A DNA stretch of 38,982 nucleotides from positions 291,746 through 330,727 of the forward strand of contig NZ_MVDN01000001.1 in assembly GCF_002006795.1 (NCBI RefSeq), written 5' to 3'. Of this stretch, positions 10,643 to 27,579 are shown in pieces. Position numbers and translations under genes: made by a program. The notes under the pieces were generated by a model. It was not told the DNA's origin and searched no databases. It saw only the letters and a list, made by a program, of their open reading frames with translations. How positions within the stretch are numbered: position 1 is the stretch's first letter; every line of letters begins with the position of its first letter. The stretch is from Wohlfahrtiimonas populi (GTDB lineage Bacteria; Pseudomonadota; Gammaproteobacteria; Cardiobacteriales; Wohlfahrtiimonadaceae).

Positions 10643-12715
10643 ATGCAGTCCTATAATACAAATCTCGTTTTTAAATGCAGCATACTTGCCTGTGCTGTTG
10701 TAGCATTCTTAGCACCTATTTCATTTGCTCAAGAAGAACAAGTTAATAGCAATGAAACTATTGAAGAATTAGAAAATTTCTCTGAAGAAACATCAGCCAT
10801 TGATTTATCCAAAGTTGTAGTAACTGCTGGCGGTTTCAGCCAAGAAGTTAAAAGTGCACCTGCTTCAATTTCTGTAATTTCTAAAGCAGAATTAGATAAT
10901 GCGCCCTTTCGCGATGTCACAGATGCATTAAAAGATGTTCCTGGTGTTGTCATTACAGGTGGTGGTGCAAGCCAAGACATCAGTATTCGTGGTATGGCTC
11001 CTCAATACACATTAATGATGGTAGATGGCAAACGCCAAAGCTCACGCGAAACTCGTCCAAATAGTGATGGTGCAGGTATCGAACAAGGTTGGGTTCCACC
11101 ATTAGCAGCGATTGAAAGAATTGAGGTTGTTCGTGGTCCAATTTCCTCTCGTTATGGTTCAGATGCGATGGGTGGTGTTGTTAACATCATCACTAAAAAA
11201 GTAGCAGATAAATGGGGCGGAAATATCCGCACAGATTTCACGCTGACAGAAAGTTCTGATAGAGGCAATACAAATACAACAGAATTTTATTTAGCAGGCC
11301 CATTAATTGCTGAAACTTTAGGTTTACAACTCTATGGAAAGCATTCAGGCCGTGAAGAAGATAAAGTTAATAAAGGCTTCCCTGAACAACGTCTACAAAA
11401 CTTTGGTAGTAAATTATCTTTTGTGCCAGTTAAAGGTCAAACATTCGAATTAGAAGGTGGAATGGGCTTCCAGAAGCGCTTCAGCCATGTTGGTAAAACA
11501 ATCTCTGAATTCAATGATAAAGGTAAACGCAATAAAGACTCAGAAAATAAATATAAGAGAAATAATATTTCTCTCAGATATTTAGGTGAGTTTGATGGCG
11601 GTATCACAAGTGATTTCTTAATTTCACACGAAGAAAATAACAACTATTCTCGTGATATGAAAGTGAAAAACTTTGAAGTATCAGGCAATGTGATCGTTCC
11701 TATTGAAACACATACAGTGACATTAGGTGGACAATATCGTACAGAAAAGTTATCTGATGCGGGCAACCAAATCAACCCTGATTTAAATAAAGTGGAACGT
11801 TGGGCATATTCATTCTTCATTGAAGATGAATGGTGGTTATTGGATAACTTCGCTTTAACAGGTGGCTTACGTTACGATTACGATGAGAATTACGGCGGTG
11901 AGTTTACACCAAGATTATACGCTGTATGGAACATCGATGATGTATGGACATTAAAAGGTGGTATGTCTAAGGGCTATTCAGCACCTGGTTTACGTCAATC
12001 AACAGATGGTTGGGGACAAATCAGTGGTGGTGGTATGTATGCCATTGACGGTGTGATTTTAGGTAATTCAAACTTAAAACCTGAAAAAACAACTAACTAT
12101 GAAATTAGCACATCATTCACACCTAATGAAGCATTAGACATCAATGCAACAGCGTTCTATACAAAGTTCAAAGATAAAATCGAAACTACTCGTGTTTGCA
12201 ATATGATTGGTTACGGTGGTACAGATGCAACTTGTATGTATAACGGCACAGAGTTCTGGTACATCGATGAGAGAACGAATGTTGATAATGCTAAGCTTTA
12301 TGGATTTGAACTTGCAGCTAGATGGCAACCTATTGATACATTAACACTTTCAAGCAGCTATACCTATACCAAAACAAAAATTACAAGTGGCGATAAAAAA
12401 GGCACACCATTAAATCGCGTACCTGATCATTTGTTTAATATTAAAACTGACTGGCAATTTGCACCACAAGCCAATGCATGGGCAAAAGTTAGCTATCATG
12501 GTAAAGAGAAAGCATCTACATCACGCGGTGGACCATTAGATAAGCAATACAATGGCTATACAATTGTTGATTTAGGTATGTCATATAAATATAACAATGA
12601 TACTAATATCTATGGTGGGATCTATAACCTTACAGATAAAAGAATTGATGATGATAACTATGGCAAACGTTTAGATGGCCGCCGTTATTGGATCGGTGTT
12701 AGCATCGATTTCTAA
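10643..12715 (+). CDS. TonB-dependent siderophore receptor 1 (CirA/FepA-like)
   Basis: An outer-membrane beta-barrel transporter that takes up ferric siderophore using TonB energy. Residues 1-29 form a signal peptide (cleavage after SFA). A 25-residue acidic stretch (30-54) precedes the TonB box LSKVVVT (55-61). The plug domain follows (SISVISKAELDN, DVTDALKDVPGVVITGGG, DISIRGM, MMVDGKR, IERIEVVRGP, SSRYGSDAMGGVVNIITKK), then a barrel ending in the canonical terminal phenylalanine (RRYWIGVSIDF). These motifs are those of catecholate-type CirA/FepA-family receptors; the ligand is not readable. AAGGA precedes the ATG. Fur-box promoter upstream, terminator downstream, and a close paralogue follows. 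Confidence 0.93.
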   Translation: MQSYNTNLVFKCSILACAVVAFLAPISFAQEEQVNSNETIEELENFSEETSAIDLSKVVVTAGGFSQEVKSAPASISVISKAELDNAPFRDVTDALKDVPGVVITGGGASQDISIRGMAPQYTLMMVDGKRQSSRETRPNSDGAGIEQGWVPPLAAIERIEVVRGPISSRYGSDAMGGVVNIITKKVADKWGGNIRTDFTLTESSDRGNTNTTEFYLAGPLIAETLGLQLYGKHSGREEDKVNKGFPEQRLQNFGSKLSFVPVKGQTFELEGGMGFQKRFSHVGKTISEFNDKGKRNKDSENKYKRNNISLRYLGEFDGGITSDFLISHEENNNYSRDMKVKNFEVSGNVIVPIETHTVTLGGQYRTEKLSDAGNQINPDLNKVERWAYSFFIEDEWWLLDNFALTGGLRYDYDENYGGEFTPRLYAVWNIDDVWTLKGGMSKGYSAPGLRQSTDGWGQISGGGMYAIDGVILGNSNLKPEKTTNYEISTSFTPNEALDINATAFYTKFKDKIETTRVCNMIGYGGTDATCMYNGTEFWYIDERTNVDNAKLYGFELAARWQPIDTLTLSSSYTYTKTKITSGDKKGTPLNRVPDHLFNIKTDWQFAPQANAWAKVSYHGKEKASTSRGGPLDKQYNGYTIVDLGMSYKYNNDTNIYGGIYNLTDKRIDDDNYGKRLDGRRYWIGVSIDF

Positions 12716-13023: not shown

Positions 13024-15087
13024 ATGTCACGCAATCTTACTCTCCCCATCTTTAAACATAGCTTAGTTGCTGTTGCTGTATTTGCACTCATTTCTCCAAT
13101 GTCATTCGCTCAAGAAGAAAAAGTTAATAGCAATGAAACAATTGAAGAATTAGAAAACTTCTCACAAGAAACATCAGCCATCGACTTATCGAAAGTTGTT
13201 GTGACTGCTGGTGGTTTCAGTCAGGAAATTAAAAGTGCACCTGCATCTATTTCTGTCGTATCTAAAGCAGAATTAGATAATGCACCATTTCGCGATGTGA
13301 CAGATGCATTAAAAGATGTTCCAGGGGTTGTAATTACAGGTGGCGGTGCAAGCCAAGATATTAGTATTCGTGGTATGGCACCTCAATACACATTGATGAT
13401 GGTGGATGGTAAACGTCAAAACTCGCGCCAAACACGCCCAAATAGTGATGGATCAGGTATCGAACAAGGTTGGATTCCACCATTAGCAGCAATTGATCGT
13501 ATTGAAGTTGTACGTGGACCAATGTCATCACGTTATGGCTCCGATGCGATGGGTGGCGTGATCAACATCATCACTAAAAAAGTAGCAGATAAATGGGGTG
13601 GTAACGTTCGTACAGACTATACAGTACAACATCATTCTGATGCAGGTAATGGTAGTAACACAGAATTCTACCTAAATGGCCCATTGATCAAAGAGACTTT
13701 AGGCTTACAATTGTATGGTAAATATTCCAACCGCCGAGAAGACGAGTTTTCAGGCGGTAACCCAGAACAACGTATCGAAAACATTGGTGGTAAATTATCT
13801 TTTGTACCAGTAAAAGGTCAAACATTTGAATTAGAATATGGCTCTGGTTTCCAAAAACGGTTCTGGACAGCAGATAAATCAGCGGATAAATCATCAGATA
13901 ATAAATATAAACGCAATAATGGATCACTTCGCTATACAGGTGAATTTGATGGCGGCATCATTGCAGACTTATTAGTTTCTCATGAAAAAAATAATAACTA
14001 TTCACGCAACATGATTGTAAAAAATACTGAAGTGAATGGTAATGTGATCATCCCAATTGGTACACATACAATGACAGTTGGCGGACAATACATTGATGAG
14101 AAATTAAGAGACACTAATAATAAATTCAGCACATCCTCCACTCCTGTTAATAATATCGCTCGAAAAAGCTATGCAATTTTCATAGAAGACGAATGGTGGA
14201 TTTTAGATAACTTTGCCATCACTGCTGGCCTCCGCTATGATCATGATGAAAACTATGGTAGCCATTGGACACCACGTTTATATGGTGTATGGAATATTGA
14301 TGAAGCGTGGACAATCAAAGGCGGTATTTCTACAGGTTATAGGACGCCATCGATCCGCCAAGCAGTTGCAGATTGGGGACATGGTACGGGCGGTGGTCGT
14401 ACTAATGGTGTGATCTTAGGCAATCCTAGCCTAAAACCTGAAAAATCTACAAACTACGAAATCAGTGTAAATTTTGCACCCGATGAAAATTTAGATATTA
14501 ATACAACTGTTTTCTATACGCAGTTTAAAGATAAATTACAAAATGTTGAAACATGCCGTTCACCTGATTATAAAGGTAAATATAATTCTGCCCTGCACGA
14601 TAAATGTCGAGCACCTAATGGCCAAATGTTCTACTTCATCCAAACTAATGAAAATATTGATGATGCAACACTTAAAGGTATTGAGTTAGCAGCACGTTGG
14701 AGGCCCGTTGAAGAGTTAACATTATCAACAAGCTATACCTTTACAAAAACAAAACAAACTAGTGGTGCCAATAAAGGTGACCCTTTAAATCGTATTCCTA
14801 AACATTTATTGAATGTCGGCGCTGATTGGCAATTTACACCTCAAGCTAACGTTTGGGTAAAAGCGAACTATCGTGGCAAAGAAACACAGTTATCACGCGG
14901 TGGTGCTAAAGGCACAGAATATCCAAGCTATACAATGGTGGATATCGGTGGATCATATAAATTCGATGATCGCACAAGCTTCTTTGCTGGGGTATATAAC
15001 TTAACTAACAAGAAGATTACTGATGAAAAATATGGTAAGAGTTTAGATGGTCGCCGTTATTGGTTAGGTGTGAGTGTAGATTTCTAA
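13024..15087 (+). CDS. TonB-dependent siderophore receptor 2 (CirA/FepA-like)
   Basis: A 687-residue paralogue of the preceding receptor with the same architecture: 29-residue signal peptide ending SFA, acidic linker 30-54, TonB box LSKVVVT, plug domain and barrel with terminal phenylalanine (RRYWLGVSVDF). The region from about residue 30 to 200 is almost identical to receptor 1, whereas several barrel segments expected to be extracellular loops differ in sequence and length. One example is the loop near 500-535, where the cysteine-flanked insert of receptor 1 is replaced by an unrelated, longer one with C-R-S-P and K-C-R-A. This suggests gene duplication followed by ligand or phage-escape divergence. 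GAGG precedes the ATG. Confidence 0.93.
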   Translation: MSRNLTLPIFKHSLVAVAVFALISPMSFAQEEKVNSNETIEELENFSQETSAIDLSKVVVTAGGFSQEIKSAPASISVVSKAELDNAPFRDVTDALKDVPGVVITGGGASQDISIRGMAPQYTLMMVDGKRQNSRQTRPNSDGSGIEQGWIPPLAAIDRIEVVRGPMSSRYGSDAMGGVINIITKKVADKWGGNVRTDYTVQHHSDAGNGSNTEFYLNGPLIKETLGLQLYGKYSNRREDEFSGGNPEQRIENIGGKLSFVPVKGQTFELEYGSGFQKRFWTADKSADKSSDNKYKRNNGSLRYTGEFDGGIIADLLVSHEKNNNYSRNMIVKNTEVNGNVIIPIGTHTMTVGGQYIDEKLRDTNNKFSTSSTPVNNIARKSYAIFIEDEWWILDNFAITAGLRYDHDENYGSHWTPRLYGVWNIDEAWTIKGGISTGYRTPSIRQAVADWGHGTGGGRTNGVILGNPSLKPEKSTNYEISVNFAPDENLDINTTVFYTQFKDKLQNVETCRSPDYKGKYNSALHDKCRAPNGQMFYFIQTNENIDDATLKGIELAARWRPVEELTLSTSYTFTKTKQTSGANKGDPLNRIPKHLLNVGADWQFTPQANVWVKANYRGKETQLSRGGAKGTEYPSYTMVDIGGSYKFDDRTSFFAGVYNLTNKKITDEKYGKSLDGRRYWLGVSVDF

Positions 15088-20997: not shown

Positions 20998-21870
20998 TTA
21001 TCTCATCCCTGCTTCGCCTGTCCAAAATCCAGAGCATTCATTCTGTGTTAATGGTTGTGGAATATAATCCTTGGATAACATTCTCACACGATATTGCTGA
21101 ATCACATTAACAATATCCTCATCTAATGGTGATAAACGAATAATATCCACTAAACCTTCTAACGCTGAGTATTCGTTGATTAAGTTATAACAAAGCCCGC
21201 TTTGCATTTGAATGCCATTCATTGTAAAAATGCGTTGATCATCTTGCGTCAATACAGCTTTACCTGCCGGATCATGAATACAAGCAATTTCACAATCTGC
21301 TTTATCTCGCCCAACATTGCGCGCTGTGAAGCATCGTGCAGAATATGATAAAGGCAGATAGCCATAAGCTAATATCTCTTTCTCAAATTTTTGCCATATT
21401 CCCTGTGATTCACATTCTTTTTGAATGGCACTCAACCATTCTTGCGAAAGCTCCACAGGAAAGCACCATCGTTGCATGCCATTACGTAGCATCACAGCCA
21501 AAGCTTCTGCATTGTAGATATTTAAAGCATGCCCTACCACAAATGGTAATTGATTTTCCACACACAGATTAATGACAGAAAAATCATTGGCTTCAATCAT
21601 AAACTCACCATTACTCACAGCTTTTTTAACATCCAACAATTTAGATGGACTATCCACCAATGCTAATGATGTTAAAATAACTTCTTTGCCATGTTTCTTG
21701 AGCTCTTGACCGATCTCAAGCCAATCATTGAGTAAAAGTTCTTGGCGCTTTGCACAGACCATTTCACCCAAATAAACAATATCTATATCACTCATTTTGA
21801 TGGTATCATAAAAATCATAAACTCTAGTTTTTCCCCAACAATAAAGAATCGGGCTTAATGATAATTTCAT
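20998..21870 (-). CDS. ubiV: UbiV, O2-independent ubiquinone hydroxylation (U32 family)
   Basis: UbiV (formerly YhbV) with UbiU performs the O2-independent ring hydroxylations of ubiquinone synthesis, using prephenate as oxygen source, and carries a [4Fe-4S] cluster. The 290-residue protein has the cysteine set expected for UbiV: C39 in GEMVCAKRQ and a cluster with spacing C-x12-C-x3-C in SARCFTARNVGRDKADCEIAC. Length matches E. coli UbiV (292). AAGGA is 8 bases before the ATG, and the gene starts 18 bases after ubiU, so they form one operon. Confidence 0.95.
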   Translation of the reverse strand: MKLSLSPILYCWGKTRVYDFYDTIKMSDIDIVYLGEMVCAKRQELLLNDWLEIGQELKKHGKEVILTSLALVDSPSKLLDVKKAVSNGEFMIEANDFSVINLCVENQLPFVVGHALNIYNAEALAVMLRNGMQRWCFPVELSQEWLSAIQKECESQGIWQKFEKEILAYGYLPLSYSARCFTARNVGRDKADCEIACIHDPAGKAVLTQDDQRIFTMNGIQMQSGLCYNLINEYSALEGLVDIIRLSPLDEDIVNVIQQYRVRMLSKDYIPQPLTQNECSGFWTGEAGMR

Positions 21871-21888: not shown

Positions 21889-22887
21889 TTATTGCCAATG
21901 GCGATTATAAGCACCTAAAGTGGTTTGCTTACCTTCTGAAATTTCACTCAATGCTTGATCCCATTGTGCTTTCACTTGAAAGTCATTGGGTGATTTTTGA
22001 TAATAATCGATTGCTTCTCGCCATGTTTTGGCAACTTTAGCAACGTAAGCTGGGCTGCGTTGGCGCCCTTCTATCTTCACTGATGCAATGCCCATTTTGA
22101 AAAAATCAGGAATCAATGAAATTGTATTCAAACTCGTCGGTTCTTCCATCACATGATAGAGAGAATCTTCGACATTGAATCGCCCTTTACATAAAGTCGG
22201 GTAACCTGCATGCTCAGATTCTGAAAAGCGATCAATCAAAATATTATTCAAACGTGTCTCTTTACCGCCATTTTCAATTTCTCGCCATTCTACAAATTCC
22301 GCAGGTGAACATGCACCTGCGGTATTCGGTGATTTACCTGTCGTATAAGATGATAAATAACAACGTCCTTCTGCCATGATACATAACCCACCAAATGCAA
22401 AAACCTCCAATGGAACGGGAGATTCTTGTGCGAGTTTTTTTACTTGATGAATGGGCAAAACACGAGGAATCACGATCCGCTTAACATTAAATTCACGCTG
22501 ATAAAATTTAATGGCTTCGAGATTGGTAGCTGAGGCTTGTACGGATAAATGTATTTCCATCTCAGGATGTTGATTGGCAACATAATCCAAATTAGCAATA
22601 TCTGCCAATATCAAAGCATCAACACCTTCTCCAGCTGAGCGATCAATAGCACTTTTCCAAACATCAAAAGAAGAAGGATTCACAAATGTATTAATTGCAA
22701 CATGCAGTTTTTTACCAAAGCTTTTCGTTGTTTTCACTGCTTCTTGTAATCGTTTTTCTGTAAAATTTAACCCTGGAAAATGGCGAGCATTGGTTTCATC
22801 TTTGAGACCAATGTAGACAGCATCTGCACCATTTTCAAATGCAGTTTTCAGAGCAGGTAAATTACCCGCTGGGCATAATAATTCCAT
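21889..22887 (-). CDS. ubiU: UbiU, O2-independent ubiquinone hydroxylation (U32 family)
   Basis: UbiU (formerly YhbU) is the partner of UbiV in anaerobic ubiquinone synthesis; it was once listed as a U32 peptidase. MELLCPAGNLPALKTAFENGADAVYIG at the N-terminus and the cysteines in GGLCIMAEGRCYLSS, GACSPAE and GYPTLCKGRF correspond to the four [4Fe-4S] ligands of the E. coli protein, and the length (332) is nearly identical. GAGG precedes the ATG. The promoter region upstream contains a perfect FNR palindrome centred at the class II activation distance from a plausible -10 element. Confidence 0.96.
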   Translation of the reverse strand: MELLCPAGNLPALKTAFENGADAVYIGLKDETNARHFPGLNFTEKRLQEAVKTTKSFGKKLHVAINTFVNPSSFDVWKSAIDRSAGEGVDALILADIANLDYVANQHPEMEIHLSVQASATNLEAIKFYQREFNVKRIVIPRVLPIHQVKKLAQESPVPLEVFAFGGLCIMAEGRCYLSSYTTGKSPNTAGACSPAEFVEWREIENGGKETRLNNILIDRFSESEHAGYPTLCKGRFNVEDSLYHVMEEPTSLNTISLIPDFFKMGIASVKIEGRQRSPAYVAKVAKTWREAIDYYQKSPNDFQVKAQWDQALSEISEGKQTTLGAYNRHWQ

Positions 22888-22922
22888 AACGCCTCATTTA
22901 TGATTAATATCAAAATGCTATT

Positions 22923-22928
22923 AAGATA
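22923..22928 (-). promoter_or_regulatory. Candidate -10 element of the ubiUV promoter
   Basis: TATCTT on the minus strand would place the transcription start near 22916, 29 bases before the ubiU ATG and 41.5 bases from the centre of the FNR site, the classical class II spacing. Confidence 0.45.
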
Positions 22929-22950
22929 GATTGTTTACAGTATGAGTGGT

Positions 22951-22964
22951 TTGATTGGAATCAA
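22951..22964. promoter_or_regulatory. FNR-binding site in the ubiU-ubiT divergent region
   Basis: TTGATTGGAATCAA is an exact match to the FNR consensus TTGATnnnnATCAA, including both half-sites. It lies 63 bases upstream of ubiU and ends 13 bases before the ubiT ATG. It implies induction of ubiUV when oxygen is low. Confidence 0.85.
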
Positions 22965-22977
22965 TTTTGAGGTCGTT

Positions 22978-23454
22978 ATGCAAATACCCGCTCAAGTTTC
23001 AAAGCATTTACCTGATATTTTGCCAAAACTGTGCAAATATCATTTGAAGATAATGCCGAATCAATTAAAAATTCAATGCATTAATATTGCCATGAATCAT
23101 TTCTTTAAAGAGGCAATTGCTGAAGGTGAATTGGATTTTTTAGAGAATAAAACTTTTCAAATTAACGTGGATGATATTCATTATTCAACAACCATCACAT
23201 TACGAAATAATAAGCTGGTAGCATTGGATGCTAATGAAAAAGCTGATGTCATATTAAAATCAACATTTAATCCTTTGGTTTTATTAATCTCCAGAACAGA
23301 AGATCCTGATACATTATTCTTCAATCGTGCTTTAGCAATCGAAGGTAAGACAGCTTTAGTTTTAGAAATTAAAAATTGGCTAGATAGCTTAGACTTTGAT
23401 CTATTGCCAAAAACGATGCAAAAAGCATTAATTAATTATAGTGAAATGCTCTAG
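22978..23454 (+). CDS. ubiT: UbiT, SCP2-domain accessory factor
   Basis: UbiT (formerly YhbT) is the lipid-binding SCP2-domain protein needed, like UbiJ in the aerobic pathway, to carry ubiquinone intermediates under anaerobic conditions. The 158-residue protein contains AIAEGELDFLENKTFQI, which aligns with DDGELEFLEG of E. coli UbiT, and DPDTLFFNRALAIEGKTALVLEIKNWLDSLD, the diagnostic C-terminal SCP2 segment. The upstream ATG at 22942 is rejected because the FNR site would lie inside the gene and no SD precedes it; ATG 22978 has GAGG 5 bases upstream and restores family length. Divergent from ubiUV. Confidence 0.92.
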   Translation: MQIPAQVSKHLPDILPKLCKYHLKIMPNQLKIQCINIAMNHFFKEAIAEGELDFLENKTFQINVDDIHYSTTITLRNNKLVALDANEKADVILKSTFNPLVLLISRTEDPDTLFFNRALAIEGKTALVLEIKNWLDSLDFDLLPKTMQKALINYSEML

Positions 23455-23458
23455 ATAT

Positions 23459-23485
23459 AAAAAATCCCGCTATGCGGGATTTTTT
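23459..23485. terminator. Bidirectional terminator between ubiT and the PAS gene
   Basis: AAAAAATCCCGC / GCGGGATTTTTT with a TAT loop, flanked by A- and T-runs. It ends both ubiT and the convergent PAS gene. Confidence 0.92.
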
Positions 23486-23519
23486 ATTAAATAATTTATT
23501 AATACTGATTTAATATTAA

Positions 23520-24047
23520 TTATAGCACTAATTCACCTGACCAAATTTTACCAATCACTTCTAGCGTTTGATTCACACCTTCACGTGCAGGCTTACGACG
23601 AACAGATGTATAAGCGATGATATGGCCATCTTCATAGTTTGGGCTTGCTGTTGCATAAACCCAATAATAACGACCATCTTTACGCAAGTTTTTAACAAAA
23701 CCACGCCAAGGCTTACCTGATTGAATCGTATCCCATAAATCTTTAAAGATCACAGGTGGAACATCAGGATGACGCAAAATAGAGTGTGGTGAACCTACTA
23801 ACTCTTCTTCTGTCCATGCAGACATATCCACGAATGCTCTATTAGCGTGTGTGATAATACCGCGTGTATCAGTTCTCGAAACAATCAAGCGACCATCTGG
23901 ATAAGGCACTTCCTCATCCACAACATAAATTCGACGCTGGAAGCCTTCATAATACGTCAAAGTCTTTTCTACATACTCTATTGTACCTTGAGGTAAATCG
24001 GAAAGTTCCATGTTCGGTGGAATTTTGTAGTCTACATTGTTATCCAT
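23520..24047 (-). CDS. Aer-like PAS-domain protein without output domain
   Basis: A 175-residue soluble protein consisting essentially of one PAS domain (about 50-155). The segment GIITHANRAFVDMSAWTEEELVG, then LRHPDVPPVIFKDLW and GKPWRGFVKNLRKDGRYYWVYATASP, is that of the FAD-binding PAS domain of the aerotaxis receptor Aer; the R-H-P-D motif used for FAD binding in Aer is retained. No transmembrane, HAMP or methyl-accepting domain follows, so any output must be through a partner protein. AAGGA lies 7 bases before the ATG. Its position beside the FNR-linked ubiUVT genes fits a redox or oxygen-sensing role, but this is inference. Confidence 0.85.
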   Translation of the reverse strand: MDNNVDYKIPPNMELSDLPQGTIEYVEKTLTYYEGFQRRIYVVDEEVPYPDGRLIVSRTDTRGIITHANRAFVDMSAWTEEELVGSPHSILRHPDVPPVIFKDLWDTIQSGKPWRGFVKNLRKDGRYYWVYATASPNYEDGHIIAYTSVRRKPAREGVNQTLEVIGKIWSGELVL

Positions 24048-24152
24048 AGATGATTCCTTATATACACAAATTATTTAATTATATTATGACGTACATACCA
24101 CAATCACAAACGTTAAAAGGTATTTATTTTCTCTATTTGATTCCTATCAATA

Positions 24153-26247: not shown

Positions 26248-27579
26248 TTAGCGCATTGTCACCAATTCTTCTGCAGAAGTTGGATGTAACGCAACTGTGT
26301 CATCAAAATCTTGCTTCGTTGCGCCCATGCGAACTGCAACTGCAAAGCCTTGCAACATTTCATCCACTTGTGGGCCAATCATATGAACACCCACAACTTT
26401 TTGTTCATCACCCACAACAACTAATTTCATTGCTGTTTTTACAGGATGTGGCGTAAAGCTTGAATACATAGAAGTAAATGATGTTGTATAGCATTTTACT
26501 TTCTCATATTGAGCTTCTGCTTCCGCTTCTGTTAAGCCAACAGTACCAATTGGTGGATGGGAAAACACAATACTTGCGATATTTTCATAAGGTAAATAAC
26601 GACCTTCTTTACCACCATATAAACGATCTGCTAAACGGCGTGCCGCTGCAATTGCAACTGGTGTTAATGAGAATTCACCAATAATATCACCCAATGCAAA
26701 AACACCTTTTACATTAGTTTCTTGATATTGATCAACTGGGATCACACCATCTGATTCCATTTTAATGGAAGTATTTTCTAAACCAATGTTGTCTGTATTC
26801 AGATCACGACCAATCGCCCAAATCACTTGTTCAACTTCTGTGCGACCATGATTAGAAACAACGACTAAACCATTTGCAGTTTTTTCGATGGCTTCAATCG
26901 TAGAATTTGTATGGAATGAGAGATTTTTTTCTAACTCTAATTTCAACTCATCCGTTACAAAGTGGTCAAATGTTCTCAATACATTTTCTTTACGGCAGAA
27001 TAAATGTGACTCAGTGCCTAAACCTTGCATCAATTGTGCAATTTCTACAGCGATGTAACCCGCACCGATCACAGCAACACTTTTAGGTTGCGTTTCTAAT
27101 GCAAAAAACTCATCTGATGTAATGCCAAATTCAGCACCTTTGACATCTGTAGGAATTTTTGGACGACCACCAGTTGAGATTACAATGTGATTAGCAGTAT
27201 AACGTTCACCATTCACTTCGATTGTATGATCATCAATGAACTTTGCAGCACCTTCAATATAATCGATGCCTAAAGATTCAATGTAACCGCCATACCAATT
27301 TGTGATGCCACCAATATAACCATCACGCTTCTCTTTCAATGTTACCCAAGAGAAATTTTTCAATTCAACATCAAAGCCATAACCAGATGCATTGCGAATT
27401 GTGTCTGCAACATGAGATGCATTCCACATGATCTTTTTCGGTACACAGCCAACGTTCACACATGTGCCACCAACCATACCTTTTTCAATCACTAAACATT
27501 TAGCGCCATAACTCACAGCACGCTCTACAACGGAAATTCCTCCTGAACCAGCGCCAAGAGCAATTACATCATATTTCAT
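26248..27579 (-). CDS. gor: Glutathione reductase
   Basis: Gor reduces glutathione disulfide with NADPH and FAD. The 443-residue protein has the FAD motif GAGSGG (9-14), the redox-active pair C40/C45 in [13 protein letters not shown], the second dinucleotide fold [17 protein letters not shown] near 170-190, the FAD-binding [15 protein letters not shown] near 300 and the C-terminal catalytic [13 protein letters not shown]. coli Gor has 450 residues. The ATG overlaps the dolP stop codon (TAATG), with AAGGA 6 bases upstream, indicating translational coupling in an rpoH-dolP-gor operon. Confidence 0.96.

Follow-up and report, generated by a model that had tools for sequence, protein, structure and literature searches.

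FNR control of the genes for O2-independent ubiquinone hydroxylation is already known in E. coli and has been predicted across the Pseudomonadota. In E. coli, Arias-Cartin et al. (2023, PMC10470549) demonstrated experimentally that the FNR site F1 activates the promoter ubiUVp and the site F2 activates ubiTp2, and that mutations in F1 and F2 act independently, neither affecting the other gene. In addition, E. coli ubiT is served by an FNR-independent promoter, ubiTp1 (PMC10470549). A predicted FNR site was reported in 96% of the divergent ubiT-ubiUV loci of Pseudomonadota in a study (ISME J 2024, PMC11707229) whose main text deals with the presence and median position of the site, without describing crossed pairs of sites or promoters that overlap, and mentions neither Wohlfahrtiimonas nor Cardiobacteriales. 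An exact FNR site between these genes, taken alone, is therefore a confirmation of what has been described. Also relevant are the bidirectional promoters that Warman et al. (2026, PMC12825309) studied in E. coli, in which divergent promoters lie on the same DNA, RNA polymerase can take up only one orientation, and activating one side can repress the other. This repression of the opposite direction was attributed mainly to polymerase competition, and CRP at -40.5 of one such promoter activated one direction while the other was blocked. Overlapping divergent promoters likewise form the basis of the genetic switch of pLS20 (PMC4207663), although this is a plasmid conjugation switch that also involves DNA looping and is not an FNR system.

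The window, that is, the whole stretch of 38,982 nucleotides of the Wohlfahrtiimonas populi genome that was analysed, contains ubiU, ubiV and ubiT, which were identified with NCBIfam equivalog models, all with scores above the cut-off. The closest named relative is Wohlfahrtiimonas larvae, with a UbiU 96% identical. The features of the locus are the following:

20998 to 21870, minus strand: ubiV, second gene of the ubiUV operon (NF047965, 331 bits, cut-off 275)
21889 to 22887, minus strand: ubiU, O2-independent ubiquinone hydroxylase subunit (NF047963, 523 bits, cut-off 440)
22900 to 22913, no strand assigned: FNR site B, ATGATTAATATCAA, with 1 mismatch, predicted to activate ubiT from a class II position
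22923 to 22928, minus strand: -10 element of ubiUV, TATCTT, predicted start at about 22916
22929 to 22935, no strand assigned: linker GATTGTT between both -10 elements, 7 bp, nearly invariant
22936 to 22941, plus strand: -10 element of ubiT, TACAGT, predicted start at about 22948
22951 to 22964, no strand assigned: FNR site A, TTGATTGGAATCAA, an exact match, predicted to activate ubiUV from a class II position
22978 to 23454, plus strand: ubiT, SCP2-domain accessory factor (NF047962, 129 bits, cut-off 46.9)
23460 to 23490, no strand assigned: probable two-way terminator, AAAAAATCCCGC TAT GCGGGATTTTTT, read directly from the sequence

The start codon of ubiU is the ATG at 22887, with the ribosome-binding GAGG at 22895-22892, and that of ubiT is the ATG at 22978, with GAGG at 22969-22972, the latter two being situated at the same place in the aligned relatives. 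The spacer between the two start codons measures 90 bp. A longer ubiT reading frame from the in-frame ATG at 22942, which would place site A inside the gene, was rejected, as this ATG is not kept in other genera and lies upstream of the predicted transcript, and the GAGG precedes the ATG at 22978 instead. Downstream of ubiT, the probable terminator, which was absent from the output of a sequence scan of the region, separates this gene from the converging gene encoding a PAS-domain protein (23520-24047, minus strand). Upstream of the latter gene, a further exact FNR site, TTGATTCCTATCAA, is located at 24137-24150; the TATAAT at 24083-24078 would place it at about -72, near the class I position, and the site is present in W. 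larvae (L043) and not in a third Wohlfahrtiimonas (L044). Elsewhere in the window, two adjacent TonB-dependent receptor genes (10643-12715 and 13024-15087) have nearly identical N-terminal parts, apparently the result of a tandem duplication.

When site A was compared with the FNR consensus TTGATNNNNATCAA, 0 mismatches were found, and its centre, at 22957.5, lies at -41.5 from the ubiUV start predicted by the TATCTT element. Both the exact palindrome between ubiU and ubiT and its class II position for ubiUV, as given in the preliminary description of this DNA, were borne out. That description was correct as regards site A and incomplete in that site B, with its single mismatch, and the -10 element of ubiT were overlooked. 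It had also held that FNR could not activate ubiT in the same way, a claim that probably does not hold, in view of site B: the conserved -10 element TACAGT facing ubiT predicts a start for which the centre of site B, at 22906.5, is at exactly -41.5. Although this hexamer is moderate (4/6), FNR very probably activates ubiT from site B, to judge from the sequence. The class II distance is thus found with an offset of 0 at both predicted promoters, A with TATCTT and B with TACAGT, and on opposite strands the same 29.5 bp, to the base, separate the centre of A or B from the first position of its -10 hexamer. The resulting order, ubiU, site B, the two -10 elements, site A and ubiT, is crossed: at the predicted promoters, the site adjacent to ubiU serves ubiT and the site adjacent to ubiT serves ubiUV. 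The whole module occupies 65 bp, with 51 bp between A and B and a symmetry centre at position 22932, and the predicted starts, 22916 leftward and 22948 rightward, are 32 bp apart. Site A falls inside the predicted 5′ leader of ubiT, its centre about 10 bp past the predicted start of that gene, and site B inside the predicted 5′ leader of ubiU, its centre likewise about 10 bp past the predicted ubiUV start.

That the palindrome arose by chance in AT-rich DNA and has no function is barely credible. The whole genome contains 28 exact FNR sites, many of them within genes, so chance copies do exist, and the third exact palindrome of the window (26722-26735), within the glutathione reductase gene, is probably one of them. 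Against this explanation, an exact site arises in simulated 90-bp spacers of local composition with a probability of only about 6e-4, and the half-sites have been kept across three genera while the site spacers have changed. For an exact site combined with a leftward -10 element at the class II distance, the simulated probability decreases to about 2.5e-5, and no pair of sites like A and B arose in 200,000 simulated spacers. The 3 exact sites of the window compare with a mean of 0.16 in dinucleotide shuffles, in which 3 were never reached. Class II geometry was not seen as a genome-wide rule, most other exact sites being intragenic or without a -10 element at that position, and the geometry of these other sites was not counted as evidence.

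As in E. coli, ubiUV and ubiT are divergent in this locus, and each direction has its own FNR site, placed upstream of the start as expected for an activator. In contrast, the E. coli spacer measures 208 bp, with the order ubiU, F1, F2 and ubiT and with promoters that stand back to back and apart, whereas the predicted promoters of the 90-bp spacer in Wohlfahrtiimonas are crossed and overlapping. The same -10 rule, applied to E. coli, assigned F1 to ubiUVp (TAAAAT, offset 0) and F2 to ubiTp2 within 1 bp. The back-to-back order was also found in Vibrio sp. UCD-FRSSP16_30 (L116), Thalassotalea (L111), and Colwellia (L120). Regarding ubiTp1, E. coli has such a promoter, whereas between 22500 and 22950 no consensus match was found for a sigma-70 promoter facing ubiT, in a scan that would miss weak promoters. 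Since neither a consensus -35 element nor a separate sigma-70 promoter was found facing ubiT, the gene may be expressed at a lower level in the presence of oxygen than it is in E. coli.

Within the Wohlfahrtiimonadaceae, ubiU was found in 10 of 18 genomes and ubiT in exactly those ten. The compact spacer is present in nine of the ten ubiUVT loci, belonging to three genera including Ignatzschineria (L045), and in all nine the order is crossed, A and B are always 51 bp apart, and both -10 elements are at the class II distance, while the distance from B to the ubiU start slides between 12 and 15 bp. The strict module pattern was matched in 9 of the 18 family genomes, with a single copy in each, and the comparison rests on ten mutually related genomes of one family. 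Column variability was counted over 8 distinct sequences from three genera. None of the ten half-site columns of site A is variable, while all four columns of its spacer are, and the same invariance applies to the six columns of the ubiUV -10 element, which reads TATCTT in the nine compact loci. Three of ten half-site columns vary in site B, as do three of six in the ubiT -10 element (TACAGT, TAGAGT, TAGCAT), the latter only at positions 3-5, with T1, A2 and T6 invariant. Overall, all 26 gap and spacer columns vary (8 in the site spacers and 18 in the outer gaps) whereas in the half-sites and -10 elements variation is confined to 6 of 32 columns. Site A is perfect in 9/9 compact loci and site B in none; nevertheless, B is present in all ten family loci with 1-2 mismatches. 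The linker GATTGTT is almost invariant across the three genera (1/7 columns variable versus 18/18 in the two outer gaps), though no known element is located there.

The tenth locus (L019, from genome G006 of a fourth genus, whose source genome is 80% complete) shows a different organization, with about 233 extra bp between ubiU and the module. Its site B, ATGATACAAATCAA, has 1 mismatch, and its ubiT -10 element, TATAGT, is nearer to the consensus. Site A, TTCAATCACACCAA, is still 51 bp from B, carrying 3 mismatches, the ubiUV -10 element is absent (AGCTTA on the plus strand), and the linker has diverged from GATTGTT. This locus would amount to a natural dissection of the module, and its state agrees with an assignment of A and TATCTT to ubiUV and of B and TA[CG]AGT to ubiT. 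The ubiUV half may have been lost or never gained; the latter is conceivable since the UbiU tree, in which g2, g3 and g1 with g4 form a fork, gives no order among the four genera. The extra DNA contains a short open reading frame (ALPQGDFYKLDFSRLAILLKAQFTEVNEHFNNLVSAEKAINKCALQ) that resembles a gene remnant.

These comparisons bear on two explanations in which only one of the promoters would be under FNR activation. In the first, only site A matters, activating ubiUV, while transcription of ubiT has another basis and may be repressed by FNR bound to A. Site A is indeed the sole exact site, is better conserved than B and has its centre about 10 bp past the predicted start of ubiT, but we regard this explanation as unlikely, given that B has been kept in ten loci at fixed spacing with a ubiT -10 element at the class II distance, that in L019 site A is degenerate, yet B and the ubiT -10 element are present, and that no sigma-70 promoter towards ubiT was found in 22500-22950. 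In the second, which we consider slightly more doubtful still, B serves as a brake from which FNR represses ubiUV at high FNR activity without activating ubiT. The location of B in the ubiU leader and its weakness relative to A everywhere would suit such a role, as sites downstream of a start can repress. However, a brake leaves unexplained a ubiT -10 element at the exact distance with positions 1, 2 and 6 kept, as well as the fact that L019 has site B although its ubiU is about 233 bp away. In addition, among the bidirectional promoters tested in E. coli, the opposite transcript was not blocked by a bound activator on its own (PMC12825309).

With respect to the regulator, the preliminary description had suggested a search for fnr, whose absence would have counted against it, and a true FNR was found. 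It is the sole protein with a cNMP-binding domain (a single PF00027 match) in a genome that is 99.5% complete, and no further CRP/FNR-type proteins were found in this genome. The protein scored 252 bits against the NCBIfam Fnr model (cut-off 228), its four cluster cysteines align with C20, C23, C29 and C122 of E. coli (CX2CX5C and the fourth cysteine), and its recognition helix reads VETVSR. FNR is present in 17 of the 18 family genomes. DNR-type proteins read the same TTGAT half-sites, which speaks for the alternative that the palindromes are read by another regulator of the CRP/FNR family with the same core, such as CRP or DNR/NNR. As the single cNMP-binding-domain match is FNR itself, we consider this alternative very improbable.

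From the above, we consider it likely that the 90-bp spacer holds two crossed, overlapping FNR class II promoters, which probably compete. At low oxygen, an FNR dimer on site A would contact RNA polymerase at the TATCTT element and drive ubiUV leftwards, and an FNR dimer on site B would contact the polymerase at the TACAGT element and drive ubiT rightwards. Both promoters should depend on FNR, since neither has a recognisable -35 element. The predicted polymerase footprints (-50 to +20) would extend from about 22966 to 22897 for ubiUV and from about 22898 to 22967 for ubiT. Because both complexes would cover the same approximately 70 bp, only one could be accommodated at a time, and the locus should therefore alternate between transcription of ubiUV and of ubiT. 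A bias towards ubiUV would be expected, given that A is always perfect in the compact loci and B is perfect in no genome. More tentatively, and with somewhat less than even confidence, we propose that in the Wohlfahrtiimonadaceae the two promoters compete naturally: FNR would activate ubiUV as well as ubiT, the activated complexes would exclude one another, and the unequal strength of A (perfect) and B (always imperfect) would set the ratio of UbiUV to UbiT as FNR activity shifts with oxygen, possibly with less output when both sites are filled.

The exclusive occupancy expected here from the predicted footprints resembles that of the promoters of Warman et al. (PMC12825309), although these share a -10 element and have starts 10-23 bp apart, while the present promoters have separate -10 elements with 7 bp between them and predicted starts whose separation of 32 bp falls outside the range in which competition has been measured. 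Furthermore, the natural examples in that study have an activator for one direction, whereas here a single regulator has a site for each. Repression of ubiT from site A, which had been raised in the preliminary description, is possible, as A is centred about 10 bp past the predicted ubiT start; yet the relation is mutual, and polymerase competition is suggested instead. Our analysis favours competition over a roadblock as the cause of any such repression, because in the E. coli bidirectional promoters a bound activator alone does not block (PMC12825309).

Outside the family, none of 56 divergent named loci had two sites with at most 2 mismatches at a distance of 51 bp. The 40 upstream regions of ubiU taken from across the class, where ubiT is mostly not divergent, likewise showed no crossed pair. 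Among 369 genomes of the class, the strict pattern, with 3 mismatches allowed, was matched only in this genome and at two places in genome G140; the latter were rejected as crossed ubi modules, as neither is beside ubiU or ubiT. In the same unrelated gammaproteobacterium, the locus L205 (G140:C48:57035-57099) carries two near-perfect FNR sites 51 bp apart, with -10 positions that fit poorly, directly downstream of a gene of the FNR family and upstream of the next gene. A different arrangement was observed in L197 (G171:C1:11580-12798), where ubiU and ubiT are divergent and have only one exact FNR site between them, its centre about 66 bp away from the start of ubiU. Good -10 elements flank this site at the class II distance, TAAACT in the leftward and TAAATT in the rightward direction, so that in this third layout both genes could be served by one FNR dimer. 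No precedent for crossed or interlocked FNR/CRP promoter pairs was found in the open-access literature searched. Regarding other functions encoded in the genome, two molybdopterin oxidoreductase genes (G000:C12:15658-16935 and G000:C9:21732-23183), each with one in-frame TGA read through, are likely selenocysteine formate dehydrogenases; the survey of molybdopterin oxidoreductases gave no account of which family members carry ubiUVT.

With about 95 bp, the locus would provide a compact natural test bed for one activator driving two mutually exclusive promoters, a question only recently opened for bacterial bidirectional promoters (PMC12825309). Contrary to what was observed for F1 and F2 in E. 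coli, mutating one site should raise the expression of the opposite gene. The crossed layout suggests that different lineages have retained the FNR input on ubiUV and ubiT with different promoter topologies: back to back in E. coli and its relatives, crossed in the Wohlfahrtiimonadaceae, and maybe organized around one shared site in L197.
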